A stretch of 64,000 nt of DNA from assembly GCA_903882875.1 (NCBI GenBank), contig CAIRYQ010000120.1, positions 1 to 64,000 of the forward strand, read 5' to 3'. The DNA comes from an uncultured Spartobacteria bacterium. Its GTDB lineage: Bacteria > Verrucomicrobiota > Verrucomicrobiia > Chthoniobacterales > Chthoniobacteraceae. A program made the position numbers and the translations under genes. Below are positions 16,465 to 40,635 of this stretch, piece by piece. A model generated the notes under the pieces. The model worked only from the letters and a program-made list of their open reading frames with translations. It was not told the DNA's origin and did no database searches. The number at the start of each line of letters is the position of its first letter. Position 1 is the first letter of the stretch.

Positions 16465-16813
16465 GCGAGAGTGCCATCGCGCACGACGATCGCCAACGCG
16501 TTTCCGCAAACCTCAAAATCCACGACGATGTCCACGGGAGCCCGTTGAATTTCGCCGCACAGGCCCACGCCGTCGCGGATCACGTCATGCTCCGTGCTGA
16601 CTTCGGCCAGGTCGGCGAGTCCCCTCACCGGTCACGGTGGTGATGATAACGCGCACCGTTCCGTTGAGCGGGGCGCATGTGGCAGGGCAGTAAATTTCAT
16701 GTCGTTTTGCAAACGCCTGCTGGCGGAATTTTCGCAGCACGGCTGTCGCCCGCCGAAACACCGCGCTGGCAAAAACAAAGATCATGGGCAATGTGCAAGT
16801 TGACAGCCTGACC
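16465..16813. other. Divergent intergenic region
   Basis: Between ybeY (minus) and the DUF1549 gene (plus). It probably holds both promoters, but I cannot point to a convincing -35/-10 pair or operator. A minus-strand frame at 16338-16628 runs through here but overlaps ybeY and matches nothing known. Confidence 0.4.
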
Positions 16814-21794: not shown

Positions 21795-22625
21795 TCAAGC
21801 CCCGCCCGTGATGCGGCGGAGCGACGGCATCACCTCCCCCGCGGCCTCGTATAAAATCTGCCTTGCGCGCGCGAGCCGATCGCGAAACGCCACACTGTCC
21901 GCTGCGATCATTTTCACGACCAGCCCGCCGGCAGGGAGCGCGGTGATTCCGACCCAGGCTGTCTGCGGATCATGCAGCTCCTCCAATGCCCCCGCCGGCG
22001 CCGAAATGCCCGGAGCCACGCACACGATGCTCGCATAGTACGCAGTGGAAAAACGGGCGCGCAATGCATTCAACGCGGCCTCGCCGGGTGCAAGCGCGAA
22101 CCGCTCGCGCAGTGCGTGCGTCGCACCGACGAAGATGTCCGTCGCGAAGCGCAGTTCCTCATACGCAAAAATTTCCCCGGACGCGGTGCGGCCCGGTGCG
22201 ATGCTTTCGCACCAAAAGAGTGTCCCGCCTTGCTCGACGGAAATCCGCGTGCGCTGCCGGTAGCGCGTGCCGCGCTGCGGGATGAGGTACTCGGGGGAAA
22301 AATCCAGGCTCCCGTCGCGCGCCACGGTGAATTCCTGTGTGAGTTCCGCATGGCCGCCGCTCATCGTGTGCAGTCTGCTCGCGCTCGGCGTGGTGAGCAG
22401 CAGCCGCGCGCCCGTTGCGATTTCGACCTTCACTTTCACGCGATCACCGGAGAGCAACCCTGGTGTCGGACTTGCAAGATTCACCACCAGCCAGTCTGCC
22501 TCGTGATGCGGCTTGCTGATGTGAAATGGCGCAGAGAACGACTGCCGCCGGAGCACCGTGCGGCCTTCACCGTCAGTGCTCGCGAGCAGATCGAGATGCC
22601 CGTGCAGTCCCGACGCCGCGGTCAT
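21795..22625 (-). CDS. ureD: Urease accessory protein UreD
   Basis: 276 residues. Family features: NLASPTPGLLSGDRVKVKVEI near the N-terminus, TTPSASRLHTMSGGHAE, and ESIAPGRTASGEIFAYEEL in the middle. UreD (UreH) is the scaffold that holds apo-urease together with UreF and UreG for nickel insertion. Last gene of the urease operon, beginning 1 bp after the ureG stop. ATG at 22625 chosen; a TTG at 22634 would overlap ureG. Confidence 0.92.
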   Translation of the reverse strand: MTAASGLHGHLDLLASTDGEGRTVLRRQSFSAPFHISKPHHEADWLVVNLASPTPGLLSGDRVKVKVEIATGARLLLTTPSASRLHTMSGGHAELTQEFTVARDGSLDFSPEYLIPQRGTRYRQRTRISVEQGGTLFWCESIAPGRTASGEIFAYEELRFATDIFVGATHALRERFALAPGEAALNALRARFSTAYYASIVCVAPGISAPAGALEELHDPQTAWVGITALPAGGLVVKMIAADSVAFRDRLARARQILYEAAGEVMPSLRRITGGA

Positions 22626-22626
22626 G

Positions 22627-23235
22627 CTATGCAAAGAGCACCTCGCGTTTCAGCCATGCGAGCAGTTCGTCCTTGCCAGTTCCACTGCGCAGATCGGCGA
22701 AGAGGAACGGTCGTTCGCCACGCTGCACCTTTGCATCGCGTGCCATCACAGCGAGGTCCGCGCCGACGTGGATCGCGAGTTCGATTTTGTTGATCACCAG
22801 CAAATCGCTGTTCCGGATCGCGGGCCCGCCCTTGCGCGGGATTTTGTCCCCCTGCGCGACATCAATCACGTAGATGAACGCATCCACCAGCTCGGGCGAA
22901 AACGTGGCTGAGAGATTGTCGCCGCCGCTCTCGACGAGGATGAGCCGCGCGTCCGGATGGCGGCGCTCCAGTTCCTCGATGGCCGCAACATTCATCGAAG
23001 TGTCGTCGCGGATCGCCGTGTGCGGACAGCCGCCCGTCTCGACGCCGATGATGCGATCCGCCGCGAGCGCCTCGTTGCGAGTGAGAAATTCCGCGTCCTC
23101 GCGCGTGTAGATGTCGTTCGTCACGACCGCCATCGAGAACTCGTCGCGCAGCCACTGGCAGAGCCGCAGCACGCACATGGTCTTGCCGGAACCCACCGGG
23201 CCGCCGATGCCGATTCGCACAGGTCGTTTGCTCAT
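22627..23235 (-). CDS. ureG: Urease accessory GTPase UreG
   Basis: 202 residues, SIMIBI-class GTPase that delivers nickel. P-loop GGPVGSGKT (11-19), switch region [14 protein letters not shown] with the metal-binding C70-P71-H72, [15 protein letters not shown], and [15 protein letters not shown]. The guanine-specificity motif, usually NKxD (NKTD in UreG), reads NKIE here (149-152), which is unusual. Its start overlaps the ureF stop by 4 bp, showing coupling. Confidence 0.95.
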
Positions 23236-23909
23236 GAGATGAAAAGCCGTTCGTTCGCAAACTCGTGCCGCATCGCGGCGATTTCGAGCAGCGGATCAAA
23301 AGTACCGGCCTCGTCGCGCTGCACGTCGAGCGATGCGGCGATGGTCGCCTCCGCATGCGCGAGCGCCGCACGCAGCACGCGCTGGCAGCCGTCCTGCCCG
23401 ATGCGGATCAATTTCAGCGCTGCGCCGCAAGCGCCAGCGACACTCTGGTAAAACCAAGCGTCGAGCGCCGCCTCAAGCGGGAAGCCTTCGCCCGCCGCCT
23501 GCACTGCGCAGACGGTGAGGTGATGCCCATGCGCTTCGCCGCGCGCGATGGCGTCCGCGAATTCCGAATATCGCGGCAGATCATTCACCGCGCGCAATGC
23601 AGCGAGCCGCCGCCGGCCAATCGTGATGCTCGCGTCGCGGATTTCGCGCGCAAGTTTCCACGCGGAGATTTCGTGATCAATTTCGCAAAGCGATGCGCGA
23701 TCGTCCGCACACTCGTGGGCAAAGCGCAGATACGGCAACTCCTGATCACGCAGCGCGGGCAGCAGGTGGCTTTCGACGAACGCGCGCAGCCCCGCCTCGT
23801 CGCGCACATCCGCAAGCCGAGCGAATTCCTCGAAGCCGAGCGAGTGCGCGTATGCGCCCGTGGGAAAAAGCGCGTCGCTCGTCTGCAACAGCATCGGCAG
23901 CCAGTTCAT
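23232..23909 (-). CDS. ureF: Urease accessory protein UreF
   Basis: 225 residues, all-helical. Starts [23 protein letters not shown], the UreF hallmark, with [16 protein letters not shown] later. UreF joins UreD and UreG in the nickel-loading complex and gates GTP hydrolysis. It lies 24 bp downstream of ureE and overlaps ureG. Confidence 0.92.
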
Positions 23910-23933
23910 CGCATTGGGATACTGACACGCACT

Positions 23934-24359
23934 TCACTCATGGCTGTGTGCTTTTGCAAAAGGAATGAAGACACGCTCGCACGCAGTGAACGGGATTTTT
24001 TCCCGCTCGAAAAGTTGTCGCAGCGCAGGATCGTCGGGCACGCGGATCGCATCGTCGGTGACTTGGATGGGGAAGTGAAGATTTCCAATCGTCCAGCCAA
24101 ACCGCGCGACGGGCGCGGGCTTCGGGATGAGCGCGACTTCGAGCACGGGCTCGGCTTTCTGTGCGAGGACGTAGAGCGCTGCATCGCTGGCGAAGAACGC
24201 GCTGCCATCCGCGAGTGGTGTGGCGAGATCGAAACCAAACTCAGCATGATCGTCGGCGACTCCGCGCCATCTGCGCTTCGCGAGCGTGAGCCGGTCGGCG
24301 TGCAGCGCGATGCGTGGCAGCGAGGGCGGCGAATCGAGCGCGGCGTGGATGAGCGTCAT
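23934..24359 (-). CDS. ureE: Urease nickel chaperone UreE
   Basis: 141 residues with the UreE N-terminal substrate-like domain (LTLAKRRWRGVADDHAEFGFDL) and C-terminal metal-binding domain: WTIGNLHFPIQV carries the conserved histidine (usually GNRH), and the tail ends in HSHE, a short form of the His-rich nickel tail. It delivers Ni to UreG. 9 bp after ureC. Confidence 0.9.
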   Translation of the reverse strand: MTLIHAALDSPPSLPRIALHADRLTLAKRRWRGVADDHAEFGFDLATPLADGSAFFASDAALYVLAQKAEPVLEVALIPKPAPVARFGWTIGNLHFPIQVTDDAIRVPDDPALRQLFEREKIPFTACERVFIPFAKAHSHE

Positions 24360-24368
24360 GCGCCCAGG

Positions 24369-26102
24369 CTAGAAAAGAAAGTAACGCTGCGCCATCGGCA
24401 ACACGCTCGCGGGCTCGCACGTGAGCACACGTCCGTCGGCGCGGACGGTGTAGGTCTCCGGGTCCACTTCGATGCGCGGCGTGGCGTCGTTCCAGACGAG
24501 ATCTTTTTTTGTCACGGTGCGCGTGCCCTTCACGGCGACGAGGCGCTTGCCGAGCTTCAGCGAATCGAGCGCGCCGCCTTCCAATCCGATGCCGCTGACG
24601 AAGGTCACGCTGGTGGAAAATTTCGCGCGGCCATGCGCGGCGAATTGCGGGCGGTAGAACATCGGCTGTGGCGTGGGGATGCTCGCGTTCGGATCGCCCA
24701 TGTTGGCCATCGCGATGAGGCCGCCTTTCAAAATCACCTCGGGCTTCACGCCGAAGAATGCGGGTTTCCACACGACGAGATCCGCGAGCTTGCCGGGTTC
24801 GATGCTGCCGACTTCGTGCGCGATGCCGTGGGCGAGCGCGGGATTGATCGTCGTCTTTGCGACGTAGCGGAGCGCGCGGAAATTGTCGGCGGCGGCGTGT
24901 GCGGTGTCGGGCGAGGCGAGCTTTCCGAATTGCACCTTCATCTTGTGCGCCGTCTGCCAAGTGCGCGTGATGACTTCGCCGATGCGCCCCATCGCCTGCG
25001 AATCGCTCGACATGATCGAGATCGCGCCGAGGTCGTGCAGCATGTCCTCGGCGGCGATGGTCTCGGGACGGATGCGGCTCTCGGCGAACGCGACATCCTC
25101 GGGGATTTTCGAGTCGAGGTGATGGCAGACCATCAGCATGTCGAGATGCTCGGCGATGGTGTTCACGGTGAATGGGCGCGTCGGGTTTGTGGACGACGGC
25201 AGCACGTTCAGTTCGCCGCAGACGCGGATGATGTCGGGTGCGTGACCACCGCCAGCGCCTTCGCTGTGAAAGGTGTGGATCGTGCGGCCCTTGAACGCGG
25301 CGAGCGTGGCTTCGAGGAAGCCGGCTTCGTTCAGTGTGTCGGTGTGGATGGCGACCTGCACGTCGAGTTCGTCGGCCACGCCGAGGCAGCAATTAATCGC
25401 CGCGGGCGTGGTGCCCCAGTCCTCGTGCAGTTTCAGCCCGATGACACCCGCGCGCACTTGCTCACGCAGCGGCTCGGGTGTGGAGCAGTTGCCCTTGCCG
25501 AGAAAGCCGAGGTTCATCGGGTATTCGTCGGCGGCTTCGAGCATCCGCGCGATGTTCCATTTTCCCGGCGTGCAAGTCGTGGCATACGTGCCGTGCGCAG
25601 GGCCGGTGCCGCCGCCGATCATCGTGGTGACGCCGCTCGCGAGCGCGTGCTCGATCTGCTGCGGGCAGATGAAGTGGATGTGCGTGTCAATCGAGCCTGC
25701 CGTGACGATGCAGCCCTCGCCCGCGATGACTTCCGTCGCCGCGCCGATGATCATCGTGATGCCCTGCTGGATGCCGGGATTCCCCGCGTGGCCGATACCG
25801 ACGATGCGTCCGCCCTTGATGCCGATGTCGGCTTTGATGATGCCGGTGCGCGCATCTAGGATGAGCGCATTCGTGATCACGAGATCGAGGCACTCCGCAT
25901 CGAGCGCGGTGGGCGACTGCCCCATGCCGTCGCGGATGACTTTGCCGCCGCCGAATTTCACCTCATTCCCGTAGCCGCCGCTCTCCGCGATGAGGTCGCG
26001 CTCGACCTCGATGAAAAGCTCCGTGTCCGCGAGCCGCACACAGTCACCGACGGTCGGGCCGAACATGTCTGCGTATTGGCGGCGGCTGAGCGTGAGGGGC
26101 AT
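24369..26102 (-). CDS. ureC: Urease alpha subunit (catalytic)
   Basis: 577 residues, full length for bacterial UreC. All active-site residues can be seen: nickel ligands H141 and H143 (DTHIHF), the carbamylated lysine K224 (GLKLHEDWG), H253 (HTDTL), H279 (FHSEGAGGG), D367 (SSDSQAMGR), and the flap residues C326/H327 (MVCHHLD). It hydrolyses urea to ammonia and carbamate in the cytoplasm. Subunits beta and gamma are encoded just upstream (3 bp), as separate proteins, the three-subunit bacterial form. Confidence 0.98.
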
Positions 26103-26105
26103 GGG

Positions 26106-26417
26106 TCAGAGTTTTCCGTTCACCTTGGCATTGAGTCCGAAGACCTCACGCGCGCCGCTGAGTGCAACGAGTTCCACGTCGCGCGTGTCGCCAGGTTCAA
26201 AGCGGACTGCCGTGCCTGCTGGGATATTGAGCCGAAAGCCGCGCGCGGCGTCGCGGTTAAAGGAGAGCGACTCGTTCACCTCGTAAAAATGGAAGTGGCT
26301 GCCAATTTGGATCGGCCGGTCGCCAGTGTTTGCGACGCGCATGACTTTCGTGGCGAGGGTGAGATTCGCAGCGAGTCCGACAGGGTTTTCCGCAACGACG
26401 ATTTCTCCGGGAATCAT
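26106..26417 (-). CDS. ureB: Urease beta subunit
   Basis: 103 residues, the usual length. Opens MIPGEIVV and contains [19 protein letters not shown] and [17 protein letters not shown], the strongly conserved blocks of the family. Directly follows ureA with no spacer and precedes ureC by 3 bp. Confidence 0.97.
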
Positions 26418-26720
26418 TCAGCGGATCGGATTGTGGACGGTCACGAGTTTCGTGCCGTCGGGAAATGTGGCCTCGACCTGCACCTCGTGGATCATCTCGG
26501 GGATGCCCTCCATCACGTCGGTGCGCGAAAGGATCGTGGTGCCGTAACTCATCAAGTCCGTCACGCTGCGGCCATCGCGCGCGCCTTCCACGATCTCGTA
26601 TGAAATGATGGCGATGCTCTCAGGGTAATTGAGCTTCAGGCCGCGCTTCTGGCGGCGGCGCGCGAGGTCCGCGGCGACGACGATGAGGAGCTTCTCGGTT
26701 TCGCGCGGTGCGAGGTGCAT
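26418..26720 (-). CDS. ureA: Urease gamma subunit
   Basis: 100 residues, typical. Begins [13 protein letters not shown], with [20 protein letters not shown] and [19 protein letters not shown], the family signature ending VTVHNPIR. Its stop abuts the ureB start codon. Second gene of the operon after hupE. Confidence 0.97.
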
Positions 26721-27306: not shown

Positions 27307-27362
27307 GCCGGGAGTTTAGAGCGAATCCGCGCGCGATTGTGAACCACGAACACGCAAGATCA

Positions 27363-27584
27363 GGAAGATGGCGCGCCCTGCGGCACGTAGCCCATGCCGG
27401 CGCGTGCGCGATCCTCGGGGCGCAGGCCATTCATCGGGCCGCCGTCCAGCGTGTTGCCGCCCTGATCCGCCGATTGCAGCCCAACTATGCTTTTCAATGT
27501 CGTGGTCTTGCCGACGCCATTGCGCCCTATGAGGCAGAAGACGCCGCGCAAAATCTGGCTGCCGCTGATCGAAACGGTGAGCAT
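27363..27584 (-). pseudogene. urtE fragment (urea ABC transporter ATPase), truncated
   Basis: About 74 residues in frame: MLTVSISGSQILRGV, then LIGRNGVGKTTTLKS (Walker A) and LRPEDRARAGMGYVPQG (Q-loop region). In intact UrtE about a dozen residues stand between ILRGV and LIGRNG; they are missing, and the protein stops right after the Q loop, so signature and Walker B motifs are lost. It follows the urtB/urtD remnant on the same strand, as expected from the urtABCDE order. Non-functional as an ATPase. Confidence 0.8.
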
Positions 27585-27591
27585 CTTAGTG

Positions 27592-27670
27592 AAACGCCAA
27601 GACGCCAAGAAGGTGGGGTGAAAGAAAGTGAAAACGGGGCTCCTTGCATCGTCTTGGCGTCTTGGTGGTG
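27592..27670. repeat. Inverted repeat with tandem CGCCAAGA arms
   Basis: Left arm 27592-27613 holds CGCCAAGACGCCAAGA; right arm 27651-27670 holds its reverse complement, TCTTGGCGTCTTGG. Each arm is two copies of an 8-mer. The loop is about 38 bp. It lies between the urtD and urtE fragments of the decayed transporter and might have taken part in the rearrangement. Confidence 0.65.
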
Positions 27671-27684
27671 AAAACATGCCGCCC

Positions 27685-28434
27685 TCGCTTTCCGACCGAG
27701 ATAGACTTCCTTCACGCGCTCGACGTTTTGAAACTCGTCCACCGTGCCCTCGCAGAGCACATGGCCCTGGTGGAGCACGGTGACTTTGCCGCCCTTCGAG
27801 ATTTGGCGGATGAAAGTCATGTCGTGCTTGATGACGATGATGCTGTGACGGCCCGCGAGGCTCAGGAGCAATTCGCCCGTACGCTGCGTCTCGCCGTCGG
27901 TCATGCCGGCGGCGGGTTCGTCCACGAGCAGGAGGCGCGCATCTTGTGCGAGCAACATCCCGATTTCGAGCCACTGCTTCTGCCCGTGCGCGTGCGGTGC
28001 TGCGTGAGATTGGTGGTCTTCAGAATTTCGGTGATGCGATCGCTCTGCGTGCTGCTGAGCTTTGCAAAATGCGAGTGCCACACGCCGCGCGCACCTTCGA
28101 GGCTGAGCACGAGATTTTCCTCCCCCGAGTGATCCGTATAGACCGTCGGCGTCTGGAATTTCCGCCCGATCCCGAGACGGTAGATTTCATATTCGGACAT
28201 CGAGGCGACATCGTGCTTGCCCACAAGCACGAGGATTTTTCCGTGCACAGGATTGCCAAGGATTTGCTGGAGGCTCCGGTCCACAACGCCAATGCCGAGC
28301 GCGCTCACCACCGTGCCGATGAGGCTGCCCACGCCGCCGATCACCACCGTCTTGAAACTGTCCACGATATAGCGTTGTCCAAGGCTTGCCGCGACGTTGC
28401 CTATTTGGGAAAGAAACACGCCCGCGAGCCTAAT
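27685..28434 (-). pseudogene. urtB-urtD deletion chimera (urea ABC transporter remnant)
   Basis: Residues from 28428 to about 28222 read as the C-terminal part of the permease UrtB ([20 protein letters not shown]...GKILVLV). The frame then passes directly into the middle of the ATPase UrtD ([21 protein letters not shown]), so the UrtB tail, all of UrtC and the UrtD Walker A region have been deleted. Near 27995 a frameshift follows; the second frame carries [25 protein letters not shown] (Walker B) and IIVIKHDM, ending at YLGRKA near 27688. The order B-D-E matches urt operons next to urease. A broken gene set. Confidence 0.85.
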
Positions 28435-28640
28435 CACAAAGGGAAGCTCACCCTTGTATTACCTCCCTTCGAGCCACCTAATGTTCCGAGTATTGAGGCG
28501 GCGCGGCTGCGAAGCTTGCGTTCATCTTCGCCGGTTGTTTCAGGTTGCGCGAGATTTGGAGGGGGCTGTCCGGTAGTCTGCGCAACGATTCGGGCTGCTG
28601 CTTGAAGTGCATCTTCTCTCTTGCTTGGGCGTGTAGGCAT
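28434..28640 (-). pseudogene. Truncated small protein of the LGGxKGGxxR type
   Basis: A 68-codon frame. Its N-terminal part (ALQAAARIVAQTTGQ) and the late motif [16 protein letters not shown] resemble a common family of small basic proteins whose motif LGRLGGLKGGKARA is followed by a conserved lysine/arginine-rich tail. Here the tail is missing and the frame ends exactly where the urtB remnant begins, so the gene seems cut by the same deletion. Function of the family is not known to me. Confidence 0.45.
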
Positions 28641-28787: not shown

Positions 28788-30173
28788 TCATTTCGCCGCC
28801 ACGTCGAGACAGACGAGCTTGTTTTCGCTGCGCAGAAAAAGGCGTTTGCCCGAGAGCACGGGGGCGCCCCAGCACGGGTAGGTGAGGCCCGGCACCTGCC
28901 AGCGCGAGACTTCCTCGATCTTCTGCGCATTCGGTTTGAACAGCCCGAGCAGCCCCGCCTCCCCGAGCGCGAAAAGTTTTCCGTCGGTGAAAATCGTCGA
29001 GCCGCGGCCGAAGACATTCGGCGGTGCCTCGCCGGGGCGCAGCTTCGAGTGGCTGGCGTTCGGCCATCGCTCGTCGCGCTCCCATTTCACTGTGCCGGTC
29101 GCAAATTCCACGCAACGGAAAATCGCGTCGGGCTCGTTGCGTCCGCTGAATGCGAACACATGCCCCGCGACGAGGCTCGGCTGCGACCAGTGCATTTCCA
29201 GCGCGAGGGAGCGCCACACTTCGTCTGCGCCTTTTCCATCGGGCCGCACGCGCAGCAGCACGGAGCCGGAGCGGTAGTAGGCGGAGGAGATCAAAATCAG
29301 ATCGCCGCTCACCACGGGCGTCATCGCGTTCACGGTCTCCTCGCGCGGCGAGCGGAACCAGAAGGAAAAGCGGTGTGCGCCCGTCGTAGGATCGAGCGAG
29401 ATGAGCCCCTGCCGCGTGACGGTGAGCACATGGCGTTTCCCGTGAATCGTCGCGAGCACGGGCGTGCAGTAGCTGGACATTTTTTGAAATGCCGGATGCC
29501 CGGTATCCCATTTCACGAAAGGCTCACCCGGCCAGCCGTGCATCAGCGCGCCGTCCCATGTCTTCGCGCCGCCGCTCTGCCAGAGCGTCTTTCCGGTCGC
29601 GGCGTCGAATGCGACGATGTTCGAGTCCGGCTGCCCGCCGATCTGCACGATCAATTTCCCATCCTCCAGCACGGGCGAACTGCCGACACCGAAGAACGCC
29701 TGCGGAATGTCGAAGTCATTTTGCGTGGCCCGGAGCCAGAGCTGCTTGCCGGACTTGAGATCTAGGCACTTGAGCACCCCTTCCGCGCCGAGCGTGTAGC
29801 ACTTGTCCGCAGTGAGCAGCGGCGCGCAGCGCGGGCCGTTGTTGTAGCCGAAAGGATCCTGGTAAAAACTCGGGTACGAGTGCCGCCAGATCGGCGCGCC
29901 CGTCGCAGCCTCCATCGCCTCGACGACCTCCTCGCCGCCGATGCGTTGGTGCAGCACGAGCACGCCGTCGCGCACGCTCGGCACCGCGTAGCCGATCCCG
30001 GTGTCCTTTTGCCATACGACACGCGGCCCGCCTTTGGGAAACCGATCGAGCAGCCCCGTTTCTGGTGAAGTGCCGTCGCGGTTCGGGCCGAGGAATTCCG
30101 GCCAGTCCGCGGCATGTGATGCGGGCGAGGAAACGGCAAAAATGAAGATCGTGCGGAGGAGAAACAGTTTCAT
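28788..30173 (-). CDS. PQQ-type beta-propeller repeat protein, exported
   Basis: 461 residues. Signal peptide (MKLFLLRTIFIFAVSSPASHA), then WPEFLGPNRDGTSPETGLL, a start common to outer-membrane-assembly/PQQ-like propeller proteins of planctomycetes and Verrucomicrobiota, and blades of the form VVEAMEAATGAPIWRHSY and IVAFDAATGKTLWQSGG. No quinoprotein catalytic residues or haem motif are evident, so it is probably a binding or scaffold protein. It starts 51 bp after the multihaem cytochrome stop, on the same strand, so it may belong to the same unit. The ATG at 30173 fits the signal peptide; the frame is open to 30224. Confidence 0.85.
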   Translation of the reverse strand: MKLFLLRTIFIFAVSSPASHAADWPEFLGPNRDGTSPETGLLDRFPKGGPRVVWQKDTGIGYAVPSVRDGVLVLHQRIGGEEVVEAMEAATGAPIWRHSYPSFYQDPFGYNNGPRCAPLLTADKCYTLGAEGVLKCLDLKSGKQLWLRATQNDFDIPQAFFGVGSSPVLEDGKLIVQIGGQPDSNIVAFDAATGKTLWQSGGAKTWDGALMHGWPGEPFVKWDTGHPAFQKMSSYCTPVLATIHGKRHVLTVTRQGLISLDPTTGAHRFSFWFRSPREETVNAMTPVVSGDLILISSAYYRSGSVLLRVRPDGKGADEVWRSLALEMHWSQPSLVAGHVFAFSGRNEPDAIFRCVEFATGTVKWERDERWPNASHSKLRPGEAPPNVFGRGSTIFTDGKLFALGEAGLLGLFKPNAQKIEEVSRWQVPGLTYPCWGAPVLSGKRLFLRSENKLVCLDVAAK

Positions 30174-30224
30174 CGCGCGGACAAATATGTGCAAAACGGC
30201 GCGCGGCCAAGCGCACATGTTCAC

Positions 30225-33200
30225 TCAATTCCGCAGCGTCGGCACCGGCTGCGCGGGCTTCGGCTTCTTCCCGGAGTCGGCTGCCGCATCAGCAGCCGGG
30301 CTGGATTTTGCTGTCGCTTCGTCCGACGGATTCGGCCGGGCAAGCACCCGCCCTGCCTTGGTAACCAGCTTCCCATCCTTCATCGCCACATCCTCCACGC
30401 GATATAGCGATCCGTCCGCATGTCGGAGGAATGGTTTCATCTCATCGAGATGCAAGGGCCGCGAACCGCGACGTCCAAAGACAACGGTTTGCCCACCTGT
30501 TTCATCGGTGACCCGATCACGGTCCAATCCCCTCGAAACAGCGAGCATCGGTTCCTTTGTCGGATAAGTCGCGATCAGCCGCGGCGCAGGCCGCGGACTG
30601 AAGCCGGCCGCGCCTTCGACAGTGTCCGGCGAGATGATCTGCACGACACGCAGACCGTTCCTGCCATCTGCGACGAGCGCGTACATCGAAGCGGCGACGG
30701 AACCTATCTGAACAGCGCGGGCATCGTTGAGCTGGCCACCAGCATCGAATATCTGATCGAGCTTCGGCCTCTCAGGATTCTCGATGTCCACGATTGCCAG
30801 ACCATCCTTTCCGTCGGCGATGTAGGCATAGGTCCGCGCCACATAGATCTTGTGGGCGTCGCGCAGGCGCACCACGGCACCCGGCAGCGCCCGTGGATGC
30901 TCCGGATCGGCAAGACTCACAACCTTCATCCCCTCATCGTCTGTGACAAATGCGTAGAGGAACTGAATCCCGATGGCGTGCGGATTTTTCAGGAAACCGC
31001 CTGTTAGTTCTCCGACCAGCCGCGGCTGCTCTGGCTTTTCCACATCCACCACGGCCAGCCCGCGCGGCGTACAGACATAGACCCTGTGTCCTCCACACAC
31101 GCAATATTCCGCCCCGGTGAGACGGCCCTCCGGATTGAATTCCGCCGTCTTCTTGATGAAATTGTTCTGGGGATTTCCATCGAACAAAGTCCGCACATCA
31201 CACACGACCAGCCCCAGCTTGCGGTCGCTGACAAACGCATAACCATACCAATCGGGGATCGGCTGCTCCTCGTTGTTCACGGGGAACGTGAACGGCCCCT
31301 TGTTCACCACATCGTCCCTATCGTGTCTCTGCAGTCGCGTCGGATCGTTCAGCAGTGTGCTCGGCAGCGCGACCGAAGTGGCAAAGGGCGTGCGGACATA
31401 AGTCCGCTGACCAAGCGGCGAAACTGGCGACGAAACGATCCGCTCGCTGAAATCCTTCTGATCAATGTTCGCGACATCGAACACCTCAAATCCTCCGGGT
31501 CCGTTTGCCGTGTAGAGATACTCGCCGCGCAAAGTCATATCGTTGATTTCTCTGGAATGATGCTCATAGCCCGTCGCGAGCTTCCGATCGCGGGCAAGGT
31601 GCTCTGCATAGTTGCGCGGGTAGGCGTTCTTATGCATGGAACTGCCTATCGCCGACTGCGGCTCATCAGCCTCGGTCCATACAACGCCGTGCAGCGCCTT
31701 CTCCCCACCCACCCACGCATAGCGGCCAAAGAAATTCACCGTTCCGGTGCCAAAGCCGAGCAATTGCGTCATCCACGCATTGTTGTCGTTCGCCTTTGAA
31801 AGATGGCAGTCCGTGCAATTCTTCGTCGTGCCAACCCCGCTTGTCGTGTGCGGGAAGTGGGGGTTAAATGCCTGCCCGCTGTAACCGTCGCCGCTTACAG
31901 TCTGCTGCTGCGAATAGACCCAGTTGCGGTTCTGGTTCTGCGAACTGACGACTACTGCACTTGACGAACGAATCACCGCCAGACGGTTCTTTTTCACCGT
32001 GCCATCTATGCCGAGCATAAACACATCGTCGCGGACGACCTGTGGGTTATAAGTTGTGAAATTGCGATCCAAGACGCCCTCAAACTTGTTCAGCGGCACG
32101 CGCTGGTTGGCCTTCATCGAAAGATGGCACCCGAAACAACTCGTAGCCCAGGATGTATGGCAGACCTGGCAGTCCATGCTCCGATTGTCATGGGCCAACG
32201 ATGCCTTGCATTGCGCGCCCGTGAGCGGCACGTCGCCCCACGTCTCACCATCCCGCTGGATGGTCTTCGCGTGTGCGGCCTTCGGGTTGTAATGCTTGAG
32301 GGTGTTAGCCGGATCAATGACATCAACAGTCTGGGGAATCTCCCATCGGGTGTCCTTGGCCATGCTTGAATTCTGGAAAAGGCGGCGCACCGGACGGCCC
32401 TGCACGTCCTTCATCGGTTCACCGGTTTTCGGGTCGGGGACATCCTCCCACTCGAAACGTGGCTTCCACGGAGTAATGGTCTTTGAAATGTCCACCGGCT
32501 TGATTTTCCTCCGATCGTCCGGATCTGTTTCGCCTCCCGCACCTGTCGTGATCAGAGTCGGTCGAGATTGGATGGTACCGTGGCAATCCACGCACATGAT
32601 GGTCGTGGCATTGCGTGGTTCACCGTAAAGCAGACCATTGCCATGCACATCCGTCTCAAAATGGCAGTCCGCACACTGCATCCCCTTTTCGAGATGAATG
32701 TCCTTCAGATGCACAGCGCGCTTAAAGTCGCGGTGCGCGATGATGTTGTCATCCCGGTCGAGGCGGTTGCCCTTCTTATCCTGCTTGAATATCGCACGGA
32801 ACACCCAGCCGTGGCCGTGATAGTCTGCAAACTGGGTATGCTTCAGTTTCGGGTTTAGCTCTGCGACTTTCTCCAAGAAATCTAGCTTGCCCCACAGCCC
32901 GCGCGCCGCGGCGGCTTCGGGATTCGCTCTCGTGGAACGCACCAGTTCCTCATCAGTGGGATCGTGCTGCTCCTTCGGATACATGAATTCTGCATCCGTC
33001 TCCTGATCCCACCAGACGTATCCAAGATATGGGTTCACAAAAAGGTTCCCCTGGTGCATGTGGCAGTTCATGCACTGCGAGCTGGGAATCGAGCGGGTGA
33101 ACTCATGCTTGATAGGGTGCCCCCTTTCATGCTTCGAAATGGTCGGATCCTTGGAGAAACTGAGCCCCTGGTTCCCATAGCTATGCCACCAACCCGAATT

Positions 33201-34409
33201 GCTTGGCGAGCGGTCATTTGCATAGACGACATGGCAGGCGCTGCAACCGCTGGAGCGGTAATCGCCCGGATGATCATTGGAACCCAGGAAGCCGAGTAGC
33301 GGATCGTGCAGGCGCGTCTTTTGCGCGCCGAGGAAAATGGGATCGGTTCGGTTCAACGTGCCAAGCCCGCGCGCAGACAGACGCCGTTCCGGTTTGCCTG
33401 GGGGTTCATCTGGAGTCGGAATGCCAAGCGACAGCGCATCCAACCCACCCTTCTCAAAAATTCGGAAAATGTTACCGGGCTGGCTTAGGTTAAACCGCGG
33501 CAGCGGATAAAGTGTTTCCAAAATGCCGGACAACCGTGTCTGTTCCGGTGTCGGTTTGAATGGATTTTTCAACTGGAGCGGTATGCCATCCGCGCCATAG
33601 GCCTGCCCGACAATCGGATTCTTGATGTCAATGGATCCGTTGTTATAGGCCGCTGCGTTCCACAGCATGGCGCCATGATTCATCATGGAATTCCCCACCC
33701 TTTCCACAATGTCGCCATGACATAAGCCACATGCTTTTTTAGCAACTCTTAGATCGCCCGGGTTCAAGAATTGGATAAACTCCGGGGATTCGTGGTTAAG
33801 CACCACATTCGAGTTCGGCGGATTTGCCGATGTGATCCAAAACTCCGGATTCCGCGGCAGGACGTGGGCCTTCGTGATAGTCAGGCCGCGCGCCGGATCC
33901 CCACCGTGGCAGTCCGTGCAGCCTAATACGACATTCGGCGAAGTATGCATTGTGTGCGCGTCCGTTGTCTTATGGCATTCCACGCATCCCGCGCTTTTTC
34001 GATTCGCCTCGCCGACAGTCTGATCAATCCAATTCCGCGGCGGCCTGTTTGCCGACGGAATCTTCGGATGGACAGAAAGCGACGGGCCAAACCCTGATCC
34101 AAACAACCCCGATCGCCCTCCGTGGGGACTTCCACTACGGTGGTATCCGTCGCTGGGAGAGGGAAGCGGCAGTGCGCCCGAAGCGGAGGTTTCCGGCCCC
34201 ACTCCATTTCCCAATTCCGCGGATGTACCATTATTCTGTGTTCGAATGCTGCCGATATCCGGCTGCGATTGCGATACATCGCCTGCCGGTGGCTTCTTTG
34301 AAACCGAGGTCGGCGGCCCGAAACCTTCCTGCCCCCGAACGGTGCAGAGGCAGATCACCGCGGCGATGAAGGGCACAAACAGGAGGACTTGAGCCAATCG
34401 GCGGTTCAT
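30225..34409 (-). CDS. Large multihaem cytochrome c (ten CxxCH) with LVIVD propeller repeats
   Basis: 1394 residues. A signal/anchor segment (about 8-23) precedes a low-complexity Ser/Pro/Gly linker. Ten CxxCH haem sites lie at residues 142, 164, 227, 389, 446, 579, 606, 747, 758 and 865 (for example GCVECH, LGCTDCH, MDCQVCH, TSCFGCH). From about 990 on, repeated units of the form GLAVVDVEKPEQPRLVG, GMKVVSLADPEHPRAL and GLAIVDIENPERPK are LVIVD repeats, predicted to form a beta-propeller. The C-terminal tail is Ala/Lys/Pro-rich. It is presumably periplasmic or on the cell surface and carries electrons. It lies 75 bp downstream of a large outer-membrane barrel, a porin-cytochrome-like arrangement. 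Confidence 0.88.
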   Translation of the reverse strand: MNRRLAQVLLFVPFIAAVICLCTVRGQEGFGPPTSVSKKPPAGDVSQSQPDIGSIRTQNNGTSAELGNGVGPETSASGALPLPSPSDGYHRSGSPHGGRSGLFGSGFGPSLSVHPKIPSANRPPRNWIDQTVGEANRKSAGCVECHKTTDAHTMHTSPNVVLGCTDCHGGDPARGLTITKAHVLPRNPEFWITSANPPNSNVVLNHESPEFIQFLNPGDLRVAKKACGLCHGDIVERVGNSMMNHGAMLWNAAAYNNGSIDIKNPIVGQAYGADGIPLQLKNPFKPTPEQTRLSGILETLYPLPRFNLSQPGNIFRIFEKGGLDALSLGIPTPDEPPGKPERRLSARGLGTLNRTDPIFLGAQKTRLHDPLLGFLGSNDHPGDYRSSGCSACHVVYANDRSPSNSGWWHSYGNQGLSFSKDPTISKHERGHPIKHEFTRSIPSSQCMNCHMHQGNLFVNPYLGYVWWDQETDAEFMYPKEQHDPTDEELVRSTRANPEAAAARGLWGKLDFLEKVAELNPKLKHTQFADYHGHGWVFRAIFKQDKKGNRLDRDDNIIAHRDFKRAVHLKDIHLEKGMQCADCHFETDVHGNGLLYGEPRNATTIMCVDCHGTIQSRPTLITTGAGGETDPDDRRKIKPVDISKTITPWKPRFEWEDVPDPKTGEPMKDVQGRPVRRLFQNSSMAKDTRWEIPQTVDVIDPANTLKHYNPKAAHAKTIQRDGETWGDVPLTGAQCKASLAHDNRSMDCQVCHTSWATSCFGCHLSMKANQRVPLNKFEGVLDRNFTTYNPQVVRDDVFMLGIDGTVKKNRLAVIRSSSAVVVSSQNQNRNWVYSQQQTVSGDGYSGQAFNPHFPHTTSGVGTTKNCTDCHLSKANDNNAWMTQLLGFGTGTVNFFGRYAWVGGEKALHGVVWTEADEPQSAIGSSMHKNAYPRNYAEHLARDRKLATGYEHHSREINDMTLRGEYLYTANGPGGFEVFDVANIDQKDFSERIVSSPVSPLGQRTYVRTPFATSVALPSTLLNDPTRLQRHDRDDVVNKGPFTFPVNNEEQPIPDWYGYAFVSDRKLGLVVCDVRTLFDGNPQNNFIKKTAEFNPEGRLTGAEYCVCGGHRVYVCTPRGLAVVDVEKPEQPRLVGELTGGFLKNPHAIGIQFLYAFVTDDEGMKVVSLADPEHPRALPGAVVRLRDAHKIYVARTYAYIADGKDGLAIVDIENPERPKLDQIFDAGGQLNDARAVQIGSVAASMYALVADGRNGLRVVQIISPDTVEGAAGFSPRPAPRLIATYPTKEPMLAVSRGLDRDRVTDETGGQTVVFGRRGSRPLHLDEMKPFLRHADGSLYRVEDVAMKDGKLVTKAGRVLARPNPSDEATAKSSPAADAAADSGKKPKPAQPVPTLRN

Positions 34410-34484
34410 CGCTGGTACCCTCCCAAGGATTTCAAACGATGGTGAACCGCAAATGGATGACTGAAGTTTGAGCCGGCAGCCATA

Positions 34485-36833
34485 TCAATACACAAGGCTG
34501 ACGGTGAAAAATGCATTATAGAGCATGCTGTCCGGTTTTAACGAGGCGCTTTGTGAACCGAAGCCCGGAACCGGCACGGTATTGCTCCGATACATGTCTC
34601 GATAACCACCTCCGGGGAAGAAAAACCCGACACCAAGGGAAATGACGATGTTATCCGTTAGAAATGGCCGGTATTTGAATCCGACGCTGGTGTCCAGGCC
34701 GAGATCATTGCGAATCCCGTCCGTCTGAAGGGCCAGCTTGACTGATGCGGGCTCCACCATCCAAATATAGTTCACGTTGGCGAATCCCTTCAGTTTTGGG
34801 GTAATGTCCATGTCCGCACCAATCCCGAGGATCAGCGCACCGGGATTCACGAAATTGGACTGCCCTTCGGTCTTGCTGGTCCGAAGGTTCATGACGAGGG
34901 AATCGGGCTGCTTGAGATTTACTCCGGTGCCCGGCAGATTGATGCCCTCGTGAGCATACCAACTGAATGGGCCGCCGACAAAGGACGGGTTATCCAGAAT
35001 GGTATCGAACCCGTGCGCCGTGTGGTCGGTCGGCCGCGAGTCACCGCTAGCGTAAAAGCCGGAGAGTTTCAGTCGAAACCAATCCCGATCATAGCTGACT
35101 TCGAGTGCAGCCATCTGCGCATTGATATTCACCCGTCCTCCGGCGAGAGAGTTGAATTCGTCCTCGCCCAATACCTGATAGAAGGCATGAGTCAGGTTCC
35201 AACGTCCAATATGGCCATCACCCGTCCAGCCAAGATAGTAAGACTTCAGGGAATGCCCGCGCAGCCCGCTGTCCGGGTTGCCGAGAGAATTCGTGTCTTG
35301 CACGGTTCCGAGAATCTCCGGACGTGTCAGAAAACCGTTCCGGTCATAGTGGACGCCGCCCTGGTCCAAGTTCACATGCAGGCTGGCTTGCGCGGTATAT
35401 CCTTTGAATAGAAAGTCCTGCCTGAAAATGTTTGCGATGAACACATGCTGATCGCGCGAATCAAGCGAATTGAGCCCGGAATAGGTGTCCTTTTCCCGCA
35501 TGTTGAAATATGCGAGATTATATTGAATCCGGTTGTTATCGTGATTGCCAAAAATTCGCGCCCCGAGGTTCGTGTCCGCGAAGATGAATCCCCGGAAATC
35601 GGAAATGAATGGCTGCGTTCCGATGCGAGCGGAGACAAAGTCATAGTTTTCGGAAACATCCCCGATGTGGACCTCGGCAAACGCCTCCTGAAGCGCATAG
35701 AAGTCCCGAAAGCGTGTCGTGTAATGCGTGCCTCCAAGGGCGCTGTTCCCATACACCGCCGAAGGGAGCGTGACTCCTGTCGGCAGTTGCCCCGTGGCGG
35801 GATCCACCTGGACAAGCGGCTTTGCGCCAGCCAACGGCTGAAGCTGTGATGCCAGATAGTTATAGAAGTTGGCGGGGTTCACGGTGGATGTGAAACTGCC
35901 GGGGTTTCCCGCCCGCACGTTCACACCCGTGGAACTTGCGGGAATGGCTCCGATGGCGGCGGTATTGGGCACATAGCCGGAAGGATACTGTGAGCCAAGG
36001 GGGAACAGCAGATTGCTTTCCCTCACGCGAGTCCAGTTGGTGTTATAGACGCCATTGATTCGGATGAGCCACTGCACCGGCTTGAACGCAGTCTCGCCTT
36101 TGAACAGATCAAATCCAAACGACGTGTCATTTGAATAGGTCATCTGATCGCCGCGCCCAAAGAATTCCGCGCTATTCGGATACGCCGTGCTGACTCCGCT
36201 CGGCACGGGCAGCTTGCGCATCTCAAAGAGGGAAAAATTCTTCGCCGTCAGATCCATGAAAATGTCCTGACCAATCACCGGGACGTCGCCCTTCAGCTTG
36301 CTCTGTTCATAAGGATGCCATAGCCGCGGGGTGTCGTATTGGTAAGGCGTCTCCGTGGACATGTCCCGATAGCGTTGCCAGTGGGGAAAAGGAATCAGCC
36401 AGCGATTAGGTACGCCCTTCGCATGAGGCAGGAGGCCCAGCCCTTCCCGCCCTTGCGGATAGGATGGATAGGTGAATGTCTTGTTGATGGGATCGTGCCC
36501 GATTACATCGCCGCGCGGGAGCTTCAGAGTTCCCGGCAGGACTGATTCCTCGGGAAAAAGGAGCAGGCTGTTCGGATCCATTTTCAGGGCGGGCTGATCC
36601 CACATGCCCGGATCGGGATTGAATGCCGCCGGTGAACGCGGCAGTTCGCCGAGTCCGTTCGCCAAGTCGCCATCGGCAGTGGCTGCGGATCTCAGTTCCG
36701 GCGAACTCTTGCGGAATTTCAGCCTTTCGTCCGCGCCGGAAACGCCCGCAATCCCGAGGCCCACAAGCGATGCGCACGCCCACAAGACCGGACGGGTTCG
36801 CCGGGAGGGCGAGAGCGGGCTCTGGGTTGGCAT
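34485..36833 (-). CDS. Large outer-membrane beta-barrel protein paired with the multihaem cytochrome
   Basis: 782 residues. Basic N-terminus and hydrophobic core (about 12-32) ending GVSG-AD make a signal peptide. The mature protein is rich in aromatic/glycine strand patterns (TSFGFDLFKGETAFKPVQWL, YNLAYFNMRE, GFKYRPFLTDNIVISLGVGF) and ends in NAFFTVSLVY, the terminal aromatic typical of outer-membrane barrels. The N-terminal 200 residues may be a periplasmic plug or partner-binding region. Gene order suggests it houses the ten-haem cytochrome in an electron conduit. ATG at 36833 fits the signal; the frame is open to 36989. Confidence 0.75.
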   Translation of the reverse strand: MPTQSPLSPSRRTRPVLWACASLVGLGIAGVSGADERLKFRKSSPELRSAATADGDLANGLGELPRSPAAFNPDPGMWDQPALKMDPNSLLLFPEESVLPGTLKLPRGDVIGHDPINKTFTYPSYPQGREGLGLLPHAKGVPNRWLIPFPHWQRYRDMSTETPYQYDTPRLWHPYEQSKLKGDVPVIGQDIFMDLTAKNFSLFEMRKLPVPSGVSTAYPNSAEFFGRGDQMTYSNDTSFGFDLFKGETAFKPVQWLIRINGVYNTNWTRVRESNLLFPLGSQYPSGYVPNTAAIGAIPASSTGVNVRAGNPGSFTSTVNPANFYNYLASQLQPLAGAKPLVQVDPATGQLPTGVTLPSAVYGNSALGGTHYTTRFRDFYALQEAFAEVHIGDVSENYDFVSARIGTQPFISDFRGFIFADTNLGARIFGNHDNNRIQYNLAYFNMREKDTYSGLNSLDSRDQHVFIANIFRQDFLFKGYTAQASLHVNLDQGGVHYDRNGFLTRPEILGTVQDTNSLGNPDSGLRGHSLKSYYLGWTGDGHIGRWNLTHAFYQVLGEDEFNSLAGGRVNINAQMAALEVSYDRDWFRLKLSGFYASGDSRPTDHTAHGFDTILDNPSFVGGPFSWYAHEGINLPGTGVNLKQPDSLVMNLRTSKTEGQSNFVNPGALILGIGADMDITPKLKGFANVNYIWMVEPASVKLALQTDGIRNDLGLDTSVGFKYRPFLTDNIVISLGVGFFFPGGGYRDMYRSNTVPVPGFGSQSASLKPDSMLYNAFFTVSLVY

Positions 36834-37124: not shown

Positions 37125-37376
37125 GGAGGTTCCACGGAGTACTCTGGAAGTTCCAAAGGGTTCCGTGGAGGTTCCAAAGCGCCCCTTGGAACGTCCAAGG
37201 AGAACGCTGGAAGTGCCAAGGAAATCCTTGGGGATGCCAGCGGACTCCGTGGAAGTCGCACGGAAGTCCGTGGAAGTCGCACGGAAGTCCGTGGAGTGTG
37301 GCAAGGAGCCTTTGGAGTTTGCCGGGGATTCCTTGGAACCTCCAAGGAACGCGCCGGAGCTTCCGGGGAGTGTACC
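37125..37376. repeat. Array A: twelve 21-bp units
   Basis: Exactly 12 x 21 bp. Every unit begins GG; the common form is GGAAGTTCCAA followed by GGAANTCCGT. Units at 37251 and 37272 are identical, the others diverged. Within a unit, GGA recurs at positions 1 and about 12, so the motif also repeats about once per helical turn, and GGA/TCC dyads recur. No stop codon occurs across the array in nearly any frame, giving heptapeptide-repeat translations in all six frames; I regard that as a by-product. No spacers or flanking cas genes, so not CRISPR. Confidence 0.9.
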
Positions 37377-37825: not shown

Positions 37826-40558
37826 TCAGTTCAGGTAACGGAAATCCGATGTCGCGAAGAGCGAGCGGCAGAAGCTCGTCCATGCGGCCTTCACGTCCTC
37901 GGCGTCCTTGAACCCCGGCGAGGGCTTGTCGCCCTTGCTCCAGTTGTTCGGGAATTTCTGGAAGAAATTCCACGCGGCGGCGCGCTCACCCGGCGTCGCC
38001 GAGCGCCCGAGGGTGATCCAATACGCGAGGCCGAGACGCTGATCGAAGTTTGCGCCCACGCCGCCCGCCGGCCCCGAGGGAAATGCGGACAGCACGCGCT
38101 CCGCGAGCTTGCGCGAGGCGGCGGCGACCATGTCGCCATTGAGAAGGAAGAGCGCCTGCGCGGGGACGTTCGTCGTGTCGCGCGCGCCGTTCACGAGGCT
38201 CGCGTCGCCGAAGTCGAAGACCGCGAGCGCATCCGGCGGCACGTCGCGCGCGATGGGCAGATAGACGCTGCGCACGAGAGTCGTCGCGCCGCTGTTCGTG
38301 AGCTGTTCCTCGGAGATTCCGCCGGGCCGGAAGCGCGGGCCGCCGATGGGGCCGTCGCCCGCGTGGCCGATCATCGAGGCCGTGGGCGGCGAAAGCTGGA
38401 GCTGCTGGCTCGCGGAGAGCATCGCGTCGCGGATGCACTCGGCGTCGAGCCGACGCTTGCTCACGCGCCAGTGCAGCGCGTTCTCCGGATCGGCGGCAAA
38501 TGCGGCGGGCTCGTAGTCCGATGAAAGCTGGTACGCGTGGCTCATCACGATGTCGCGCGCGAGCTTCTTCACGCTCCAGCCGTAACCGCCTGCGGAGGTC
38601 GGCGTCTGGAATTTCACCGCGAGAAAATCGAGCAGCGCCTGGTTGCTCGGCTTCTTGCCGCTCGTGCCGAAATTATCCGTGCTCTCCACGATGCCGCGTC
38701 CGAAGAGCGTGTGCCACACGCGGTTCACCATCACGCGGGACGTGAGCGGATTCGACGGCGAGGTGATCCACTCCGCGAGCTGGCGGCGTCCGCTTTCCTT
38801 TGTGGGAATGGCGGGCGCGTACTCCGTGCCGAGCACTGCGGGGAAACTGCGCGGCACTTTTTCCGTCGGCTTGTCCGCCTCGCCGCGTGCGTAAAGCGCG
38901 CTGTCGCGCACCGAGCCGAATTCAGGCGGACGCCCGATGCGCGCCTGCGGGCCGCGGCGCATGAATTCACCGAGCCGTGCAAGGCCGGTCGGCGCGGTCG
39001 TCGGCAGATCCTTCACGCCCATCGCTTGTGCCTTCGGCTGGCCTTTCTCGTCGTAGCTCTTGAGCTGCGTCTCCAGCGATCCGATCTGCGTGACCATCAC
39101 GAGAATCCGCTGCAGCTCGTTTCCGGCCGGCGGAGTGGCTCCCTTCCCTCCACCAAAGCGCGCGGCGAATGCCTCGCGCTGCTCCTTCTTCAAATCGTCG
39201 AGCCGCTTTTTCATCCGATCCAGCTCGGCAGTGGAGATCGCCTTGCCCGTCGTGCCCGCGCTTTTCGGCAGCTCGACGAGTTCCGTGCCGTGGCGGTTTT
39301 GGATCGCATTGGCCGTACCGAAGAGCGTGTCGGTGCTGAGAAAAATCCCAGCAAGTCCGTAGTACTCGCGCTGTGAGATCGGATCGAACTTGTGATCATG
39401 GCAGCGCGCGCACGCAATCGTAAGCCCGAGCATCGCCTGCGAGACCGTGTCCACCTGCTCGTCCGCGAGGTCGAGGCAGAATTGCCGCGGGTTCTGCTCG
39501 TTCAGTCCCTTCGGCCCGATCGCGAGAAATCCCGTCGCGATGAGGTGCTCGGTTTTTTGCGCTTCGTTCGAGGCTGGCAGCAGATCGCCCGCGAGCTGCT
39601 CGCGCAAAAATTCGTCGTACGGCTTGTCGGCATTGAACGCCGCGATGACGTAGTCCCGATACCGCCACGCGTGCGGGAACGCGATGTTCACGTCCTTGCC
39701 GCTGCTCTCGGCGTAGCGCGCAACATCGAGCCAGTGGCGTCCCCACCGCTCGCCGAATTGCGGCGCCGCGAGCAGCCTGTCCACCCACTTGCCGAGCACG
39801 GCCTGCTGCTGCTTCGCGTCGGTGCCCGCGGCTTTCCAGTCGTTGAAAAAATTGCCGACATCCACCGGCGATGGCGGCAGTCCCGTGAGGTCGAAATAAA
39901 TCCGGCGCAGCATGGTCGCGGGATCGGCGTCGCCGACAGGCTTCAGCTTTTTCTCCTCCAGTGCGGCGAGGAGAAAACGATCCACATCGCCGTGAGCCCA
40001 CGCGGAGTTCTTCGGCTGCGGCACGGTCTGCGGCTTCGGCGGCTGGAAGGACCACCAGTTCTTCGCGTCCTCCTTGCTGAATTTTTTCACGACCGCCGCG
40101 CTGCCCGCACGCGGATCGGGCGCACCCATTTTGATCCACGTTTCAAAGTCCGCGATCACCGCCACGGGCAGCTTGCCGCCGCTCTTCTCGGGCGGCATGG
40201 CGAAGTCCTTGTTCGTGTAGCGCAGCGCCTGGATGAGGATGCTGTCGTCAAGATTTCCCGGCACGACCGCGGGGCCGCTGTCACCGCCGCGCCGCGCGCC
40301 TTCGCGCGTGTCGAGCACGAGGCCGCCCTTCACCTTGTCGGCTTTTTCAGAATGGCACTTGTAGCATTTCTCCGAAAGCACGGGCCGGATTTTTTTTTCA
40401 AAAAAATCGAGTTGCTCCGCAGTCGGCTTCGGCTCCACCGAGGGCTGGATCGCAGACTCGTCGGCCTTTGATGCCGCGGGTTTCTTGTCCTGATCCAAGG
40501 CGGCCCAGAGTGCGCCGGTGGCTGCGAGTGAGAGAGGGAAAATCAGGCGCAATTTCAT
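37826..40558 (-). CDS. Cytochrome c-like DUF1549/DUF1553 protein without adjacent DUF1501 partner
   Basis: 910 residues. Signal peptide (MKLRLIFPLSLAATGALWAA), a Lys/Ala-rich linker, a planctomycete-type cytochrome domain with one haem site KCYKCH (C65, C68, H69) and DTREGARRGGDSGPAVVPG, then DUF1549 (FDLTGLPPSPVDV, FGERWGRHWLD, CARCHDHKFDPI) and DUF1553 (NPLTSRVMVNRVWHTLFG, DNFGTSGKKPSNQALLDFLA). Same plan as the 16814 protein but without the LamG insertion. No DUF1501 gene follows: downstream is the repeat region and terminator. Confidence 0.9.
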   Translation of the reverse strand: MKLRLIFPLSLAATGALWAALDQDKKPAASKADESAIQPSVEPKPTAEQLDFFEKKIRPVLSEKCYKCHSEKADKVKGGLVLDTREGARRGGDSGPAVVPGNLDDSILIQALRYTNKDFAMPPEKSGGKLPVAVIADFETWIKMGAPDPRAGSAAVVKKFSKEDAKNWWSFQPPKPQTVPQPKNSAWAHGDVDRFLLAALEEKKLKPVGDADPATMLRRIYFDLTGLPPSPVDVGNFFNDWKAAGTDAKQQQAVLGKWVDRLLAAPQFGERWGRHWLDVARYAESSGKDVNIAFPHAWRYRDYVIAAFNADKPYDEFLREQLAGDLLPASNEAQKTEHLIATGFLAIGPKGLNEQNPRQFCLDLADEQVDTVSQAMLGLTIACARCHDHKFDPISQREYYGLAGIFLSTDTLFGTANAIQNRHGTELVELPKSAGTTGKAISTAELDRMKKRLDDLKKEQREAFAARFGGGKGATPPAGNELQRILVMVTQIGSLETQLKSYDEKGQPKAQAMGVKDLPTTAPTGLARLGEFMRRGPQARIGRPPEFGSVRDSALYARGEADKPTEKVPRSFPAVLGTEYAPAIPTKESGRRQLAEWITSPSNPLTSRVMVNRVWHTLFGRGIVESTDNFGTSGKKPSNQALLDFLAVKFQTPTSAGGYGWSVKKLARDIVMSHAYQLSSDYEPAAFAADPENALHWRVSKRRLDAECIRDAMLSASQQLQLSPPTASMIGHAGDGPIGGPRFRPGGISEEQLTNSGATTLVRSVYLPIARDVPPDALAVFDFGDASLVNGARDTTNVPAQALFLLNGDMVAAASRKLAERVLSAFPSGPAGGVGANFDQRLGLAYWITLGRSATPGERAAAWNFFQKFPNNWSKGDKPSPGFKDAEDVKAAWTSFCRSLFATSDFRYLN

Positions 40559-40635
40559 GACGATGTGTCCGTTCAACCGGGGAAGACGCGACAAGTTGCT
40601 CGCAAATTACACCCATCTCGCGCACAGGAGCGCGC

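Follow-up and report, generated by a model that had tools for sequence, protein, structure and literature searches.

A decahaem-propeller cytochrome and an AlgE-like barrel as the candidate outer-membrane end of an electron-export chain in Verrucomicrobiota

The closest described systems are MtrCAB of Shewanella and OmaB-OmbB-OmcB and extABCD of Geobacter, in which an outer-membrane barrel works with multihaem cytochromes and is fed by an inner-membrane haem route. The Geobacter extHIJKLMNOPQS cluster likewise encodes a porin-like protein and several multihaem cytochromes, and reduction of selenite and tellurite depends on its porin ExtI (PMC5877670). Within Verrucomicrobia, a porin-cytochrome cluster with an eight-haem periplasmic cytochrome was proposed by He et al. 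(2017), with IMCC26134 among the carriers (PMC5615132), so the idea of extracellular electron transfer in this phylum is not new. Here we examined a contig of an uncultured Spartobacteria bacterium (CAIRYQ010000120.1), of which the stretch analysed (64,000 nucleotides, hereafter the window) carries a barrel gene followed by a cytochrome gene. The features discussed below are as follows.

34485..36833 (-): predicted outer-membrane β-barrel, 782 aa, with an N-terminal signal peptide (ORF, AF2 model, Foldseek, homologues)
34488..36293 (-): predicted barrel domain, from the first to the last modelled strand, about residues 181-782 (AF2 model)
34410..34484 (-): 75 bp spacer from barrel to cytochrome, same strand (ORF coordinates)
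30225..34409 (-): decahaem cytochrome c with a C-terminal propeller, 1394 aa (ORF, Pfam, motif count, alignment)
34332..34409 (-): predicted Sec signal peptide of the cytochrome, without a convincing lipobox (inspection)
31803..33986 (-): ten-haem region, residues 142-869, first to last CXXCH (motifs, distant ExtM NF040943 match)
30519..31727 (-): predicted seven-bladed propeller with LVIVD repeats, residues 895-1297 (PF08309, model, structural match)
28788..30224 (-): PQQ_2/BamB-like propeller directly downstream of the cytochrome (Pfam)

Compared with MtrCAB, OmaB-OmbB-OmcB and extABCD, the window barrel has a predicted AlgE-like fold of 18 strands and lacks an MtrB family match, one secreted cytochrome unites ten haems with a propeller, and the set goes with a NAD(P)H flavoprotein/cNMP/b-type/decahaem chain and has no clear outer-surface lipoprotein cytochrome. 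A first-pass annotation of this DNA had described a ten-haem cytochrome with LVIVD repeats 75 bp after a large outer-membrane barrel and proposed an electron conduit; the spacing is exact to the base.

The AF2 model of the barrel protein shows 18 long strands with pLDDT mostly 85-97 over the strands (residue numbers used here are model residue + 35), preceded by a long, partly conserved N-terminal region. A Foldseek/VIA search matched the model to the alginate exporter AlgE (Z 28.8, 356 aligned residues, 2.7 Å), with 14% sequence identity over the aligned part, and this 18-stranded fold is shared in the absence of any Pfam match to an exporter family, so that the likeness to AlgE is one of fold only. 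Neither Pfam nor NCBIfam gave a family match for the barrel, including MtrB/PioB, and a PDB sequence search returned nothing relevant. The protein is thus predicted to be an integral outer-membrane β-barrel of the kind that defines the porin-cytochrome class, and the non-barrel fold that would have told against the first-pass annotation was not what the model gave. A 21-bp unit is repeated in short tandem arrays at 37145-37295, upstream of the barrel gene.

In the cytochrome, ten CXXCH motifs were found, at residues 142, 164, 227, 389, 446, 579, 606, 747, 758 and 865, while shuffled versions of the sequence contained a mean of 0.02 and a maximum of one (5000 shuffles). Relatives were collected by a genome scan, one per species, which gave 482 stretches; the best 80 of the 482 were kept and nearly all are labelled Verrucomicrobiota. 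The ten motifs are retained in nearly all relatives longer than 1200 aa (73 proteins), with one such relative having nine in a frame that starts at a contig edge. A further relative (G052:C3:42182-45985 (-)) carries one in-frame TAG and may reflect a sequencing error or a broken gene. Across relatives 22 histidines are invariant (at least 97%), ten within the motifs and twelve elsewhere, which is enough for bis-histidine ligation of most haems. Weak matches to the cytochrome elsewhere in the phylum sample were mostly to unrelated proteins and to the propeller part only, and were set aside.

The C-terminal part matches the LVIVD family in Pfam (PF08309), scoring 58.5 bits where the cut-off is 20.2, and its model aligns with a seven-bladed designed propeller (Z 28.4) and with the YVTN propeller 1l0q (Z 28.1). 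The repeats reported in the first-pass annotation are therefore real, but on the model they form one closed seven-bladed propeller rather than an open chain. Its view that haem and propeller parts in a single protein amount to a different design also holds, in that the protein is unlike the known periplasmic parts of MtrA or DmsE type. The model of the haem region is poor, with pLDDT below 50 over much of it. A lipobox-like pattern is present in nine of 76 cytochrome homologues and is not conserved. Immediately after the signal peptide there is a G-x-GP-x-[IT]-S-V-P-like motif (GFGPPTSVS at residues 29-37 in the window), seen in 42 of 55 linked and four of nine unlinked cytochrome relatives; judged from its sequence, it is possibly a docking peptide.

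We assessed whether the two genes belong together from their distribution. Among 335 genomes of the phylum, the full-length cytochrome and the barrel are present in the same 11, adjacent in all 11, and these span five families and eight genera, counts that are uncorrected for phylogeny and not independent of it. No barrel lacking the cytochrome was detected in the 335 genomes by either single-sequence or profile searches; this is the co-occurrence check that the first-pass annotation had called for, and the solitary barrel it had named as counter-evidence did not appear. The barrel lies upstream of the cytochrome on the same strand in all 66 linked cases, and ten of the best 80 loci have upstream sequence available but no barrel beside the cytochrome. 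Where linkage has been lost in Chthoniobacteraceae, eight genomes each encode one barrel elsewhere and one cytochrome, as does a ninth (L079); L060 alone has no barrel, and seven motifs are present in its short cytochrome frame. In the tree, the cytochromes of unlinked Chthoniobacteraceae loci are spread over three separate clades. Barrel and cytochrome distances are correlated (r = 0.89 over 59 loci, with none of 1000 shuffles as high). This identical presence and absence even when unlinked, together with the correlated trees, supports barrel and cytochrome as a functional pair, and a multihaem cytochrome that is encoded with a barrel and co-occurs with it is what characterises the conduit class. 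Loss of linkage in some Chthoniobacteraceae would fit two unrelated neighbours, but that reading is scarcely credible given the matching distribution, the correlated trees and a gene order that is the same on Sphingobium plasmids (below). A search for promoter-like sites around the pair gave none, which is weakly informative for such a phylum.

The phylum, the general idea and some of the organisms are shared with the cluster of He et al. (2017) (PMC5615132). We compared the window pair with the locus of IMCC26134 that best fits that cluster (L120 6408-11268 (+)), matched by description and not by locus tags. This locus encodes a NapC/NrfH-like hexahaem protein, a DmsE-like cytochrome and a putative porin of 775 aa that has no Pfam match, and the DmsE-like periplasmic protein has eight haem sites, seven CXXCH and one CX4CH. 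Between its porin and the window barrel hhalign found no similarity (0.1%), its cytochrome resembles the window cytochrome at the level of CXXCH only, and the window protein has ten haem motifs against eight, the reference again being this best-fitting locus. A porin beside a multihaem cytochrome in the same phylum, with IMCC26134 a listed carrier, could suggest that the window pair is a member of the published cluster; since IMCC26134 has a separate locus that fits, with porin and cytochrome not homologous beyond CXXCH, we regard membership as very improbable, and the window system appears to be a different family. Among open-licence papers we found no description of this gene combination.

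The haem region is a distant relative of Geobacter ExtM, matching NF040943 over short stretches at 67.8 bits against a cut-off of 800, and likeness among multihaem proteins is partly due to the CXXCH motif itself. ExtM (68 kDa, 12 haems) is too short to include the window propeller, and the other ext components differ. A PDB search with the cytochrome returned only a trivial stretch, to NrfB and octahaem nitrite reductase. These likenesses bear on a second reading, in which the barrel would be a selective pore for a soluble substrate, such as an oxyanion or organic acid, that the decahaem-propeller protein reduces or binds inside as a periplasmic or surface multihaem reductase, with no electrons crossing the outer membrane. 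An 18-strand barrel resembling solute channels and exporters (AlgE, OprD/Occ), a haem region distantly related to ExtM, whose cluster includes ExtI, and the weak match of one short stretch to octahaem nitrite reductase are all consistent with it. However, all ten motifs in the window cytochrome are CXXCH, CXXCK and other clear catalytic haem motifs being absent, and the neighbouring genes encode electron carriers rather than substrate-processing enzymes, and we consider a reductase unlikely, while giving it more weight than any other alternative discussed here. Separately, in a genome of 5,957,605 bases, an 11-haem ExtM-like protein (L117 7738-9909 (-), 211.7 bits) adjoins a molybdopterin oxidoreductase, NrfD and a rhodanese/sulphur-transport fusion, and this is possibly an ext-like system in Verrucomicrobiota.

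Examination of the surroundings of the pair showed recurrent neighbours: an HbpS-like protein, an NHL propeller, a trihaem C554-like cytochrome, a FAD/NAD/2Fe-2S reductase, a protein that combines cNMP-binding and 4Fe-4S domains, a small membrane protein in which two His pairs are invariant, and an anchored decahaem cytochrome formed of a Cys-rich head and one membrane helix. Of the linked loci, 33 have 8 kb or more of sequence on each side, and among these HbpS was found in 24, the NHL propeller in 16, the anchored decahaem in 15, the cNMP/Fe-S protein in 14, the flavoprotein and the b-type protein in 13 each, and the trihaem in 11. The HbpS-like gene is full length in exactly the 11 of 335 genomes that carry the pair, and the anchored decahaem gene occurs in the 11 and in seven others, there mostly as partial matches. 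The small membrane protein has four invariant histidines in two pairs 14 columns apart (22/22) and can be read from its sequence as a putative di-haem b-type protein. The NAD(P)H flavoprotein beside the cNMP/Fe-S protein differs by lineage, being of FNR, NuoEF or thioredoxin-reductase type, which suggests entry of electrons from NAD(P)H and exit via b haems to the periplasm.

In the source organism's own genome the inner-membrane genes are unlinked to the barrel-cytochrome pair: the anchored decahaem, b-type and trihaem genes lie together on contig C89, a NuoEF-like protein adjoins a cNMP/2Fe-2S/4Fe-4S protein on C3, and an HbpS-like gene is on C64. The scatter counts against the export chain proposed below, but with all parts found the whole route can be traced in this organism. 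Its HbpS-like protein shares an open frame with FG-GAP repeats (L143 5373-8381 (+)). The PQQ_2/BamB propeller was dropped as probably not part of the system, since only L002, the closest relative, also has it beside the cytochrome. Elsewhere in the window, UrtB/C-UrtD-UrtE urea transporter-like pieces lie in several frames at 27360-28605 (-), so that the transporter looks decayed, beside an apparently intact urease operon at 21795-26720, and there are two PSCyt1-PSCyt2-PSD1 'planctomycete cytochrome' proteins (16784-20032 (+) and 37826-40594 (-)).

Outside Verrucomicrobiota, carriers were found on plasmids only. Both genes are present on thirteen plasmid records, twelve from Sphingobium and one from Sphingopyxis, with 40-44% identity, and the cytochrome copies in both genera also have ten CXXCH. 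On pMSHV of S. herbicidovorans the order is a trihaem-like protein (with four CXXCH), HbpS, barrel and cytochrome, while nearby on the other strand are a metallophosphoesterase (CpdA in the annotation of a sister plasmid), a decahaem, a b-type protein and a fused Pyr_redox/cNMP/Fe-S gene; the Sphingobium b-type protein gave a weak cytochrome b561 match. The same run of trihaem-like, HbpS, barrel and cytochrome genes is found on Sphingopyxis pMC4, and both plasmids are typed conjugative. A plasmid search using the IMCC26134 decahaem anchor returned nothing and was insensitive, since a diverged counterpart does exist on a Sphingobium plasmid. The cytoplasmic head of the anchored decahaem is FHA/YscD-like in Sphingobium (L133 19811-21610 (-)) and Cys-rich in IMCC26134 (L058 4851-6572 (+)). 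Since an aerobic life is usual among sphingomonads, Sphingobium included, anaerobic metal respiration should not be assumed by default, and the same point argues against a purely anaerobic respiratory role.

From gene content, conservation, co-occurrence and haem motifs, and from the predicted barrel and propeller folds, we think it somewhat more likely than not that the pair forms the outer-membrane terminus of a conserved electron-export chain driven by NAD(P)H. We infer an order of electron flow in which electrons from NAD(P)H would enter by a flavoprotein, a NuoEF-like diaphorase in the source genome and other types in other lineages, and would then pass to the Fe-S clusters of the protein that also bears cyclic-nucleotide-binding domains, by which the flow may be gated. 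The inner membrane would be crossed on the putative di-haem b-type protein, the membrane-anchored decahaem cytochrome would take over the electrons in the periplasm, and the trihaem cytochrome may shuttle them to the decahaem-propeller cytochrome, which would work with the AlgE-like barrel at the outer membrane, perhaps in a physical complex.

The outward direction of this flow would be reversed if the chain instead took electrons from a donor outside the cell, Fe(II) or reduced humics for example, and reduced NAD(P). Carriers of the gene set are mostly heterotrophs, reduction of NAD(P) from such donors would be uphill, and no driving component is seen in the set, all of which make electron uptake improbable. 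In its favour, the parts list is reversible in principle and the MtoAB and PioAB conduits have been suggested for Fe(II) oxidation (PMC6344600).

For the export chain, the width of the barrel bears on how the pair would be arranged. A simple geometry estimate, backbone to backbone, gives ~33 Å for 18 strands and ~48 Å for 26. The MtrB barrel has 26 strands. A thick haem rod would not fit a barrel ~33 Å across and a classical plug-in-barrel conduit would be tight; the cytochrome would more likely dock or form a thin plug than be arranged as in MtrAB. We found no clear second outer-surface cytochrome, nor a conserved lipobox in the cytochrome itself (9/76), and the propeller, if sited outside, or the HbpS-like protein could act as the outer-surface redox partner.

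The first-pass annotation had thus seen half of the system, as the pair is accompanied by a trihaem cytochrome, an HbpS-like protein and a putative inner-membrane chain that would run from NAD(P)H over b haem to the decahaem protein. Taken as a whole, and only tentatively, this may be a previously undescribed, horizontally mobile form of transenvelope electron export, in which an NAD(P)H diaphorase, a cyclic-nucleotide-gated Fe-S protein, a di-haem b protein and a decahaem anchor would drive a decahaem-propeller cytochrome paired with a narrow barrel of AlgE-like fold, and which would operate in aerobic bacteria of soil and freshwater, not only in metal respirers. If so, it would add a route for electrons at the outer membrane whose barrel and cytochrome both lie outside the families of the known conduits and which draws its electrons from NAD(P)H rather than quinol, with switching by cyclic nucleotides possible. 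It would occur in an abundant, hard-to-culture phylum and also on plasmids of easily grown sphingomonads, and these plasmid copies make its function directly testable in a laboratory strain.
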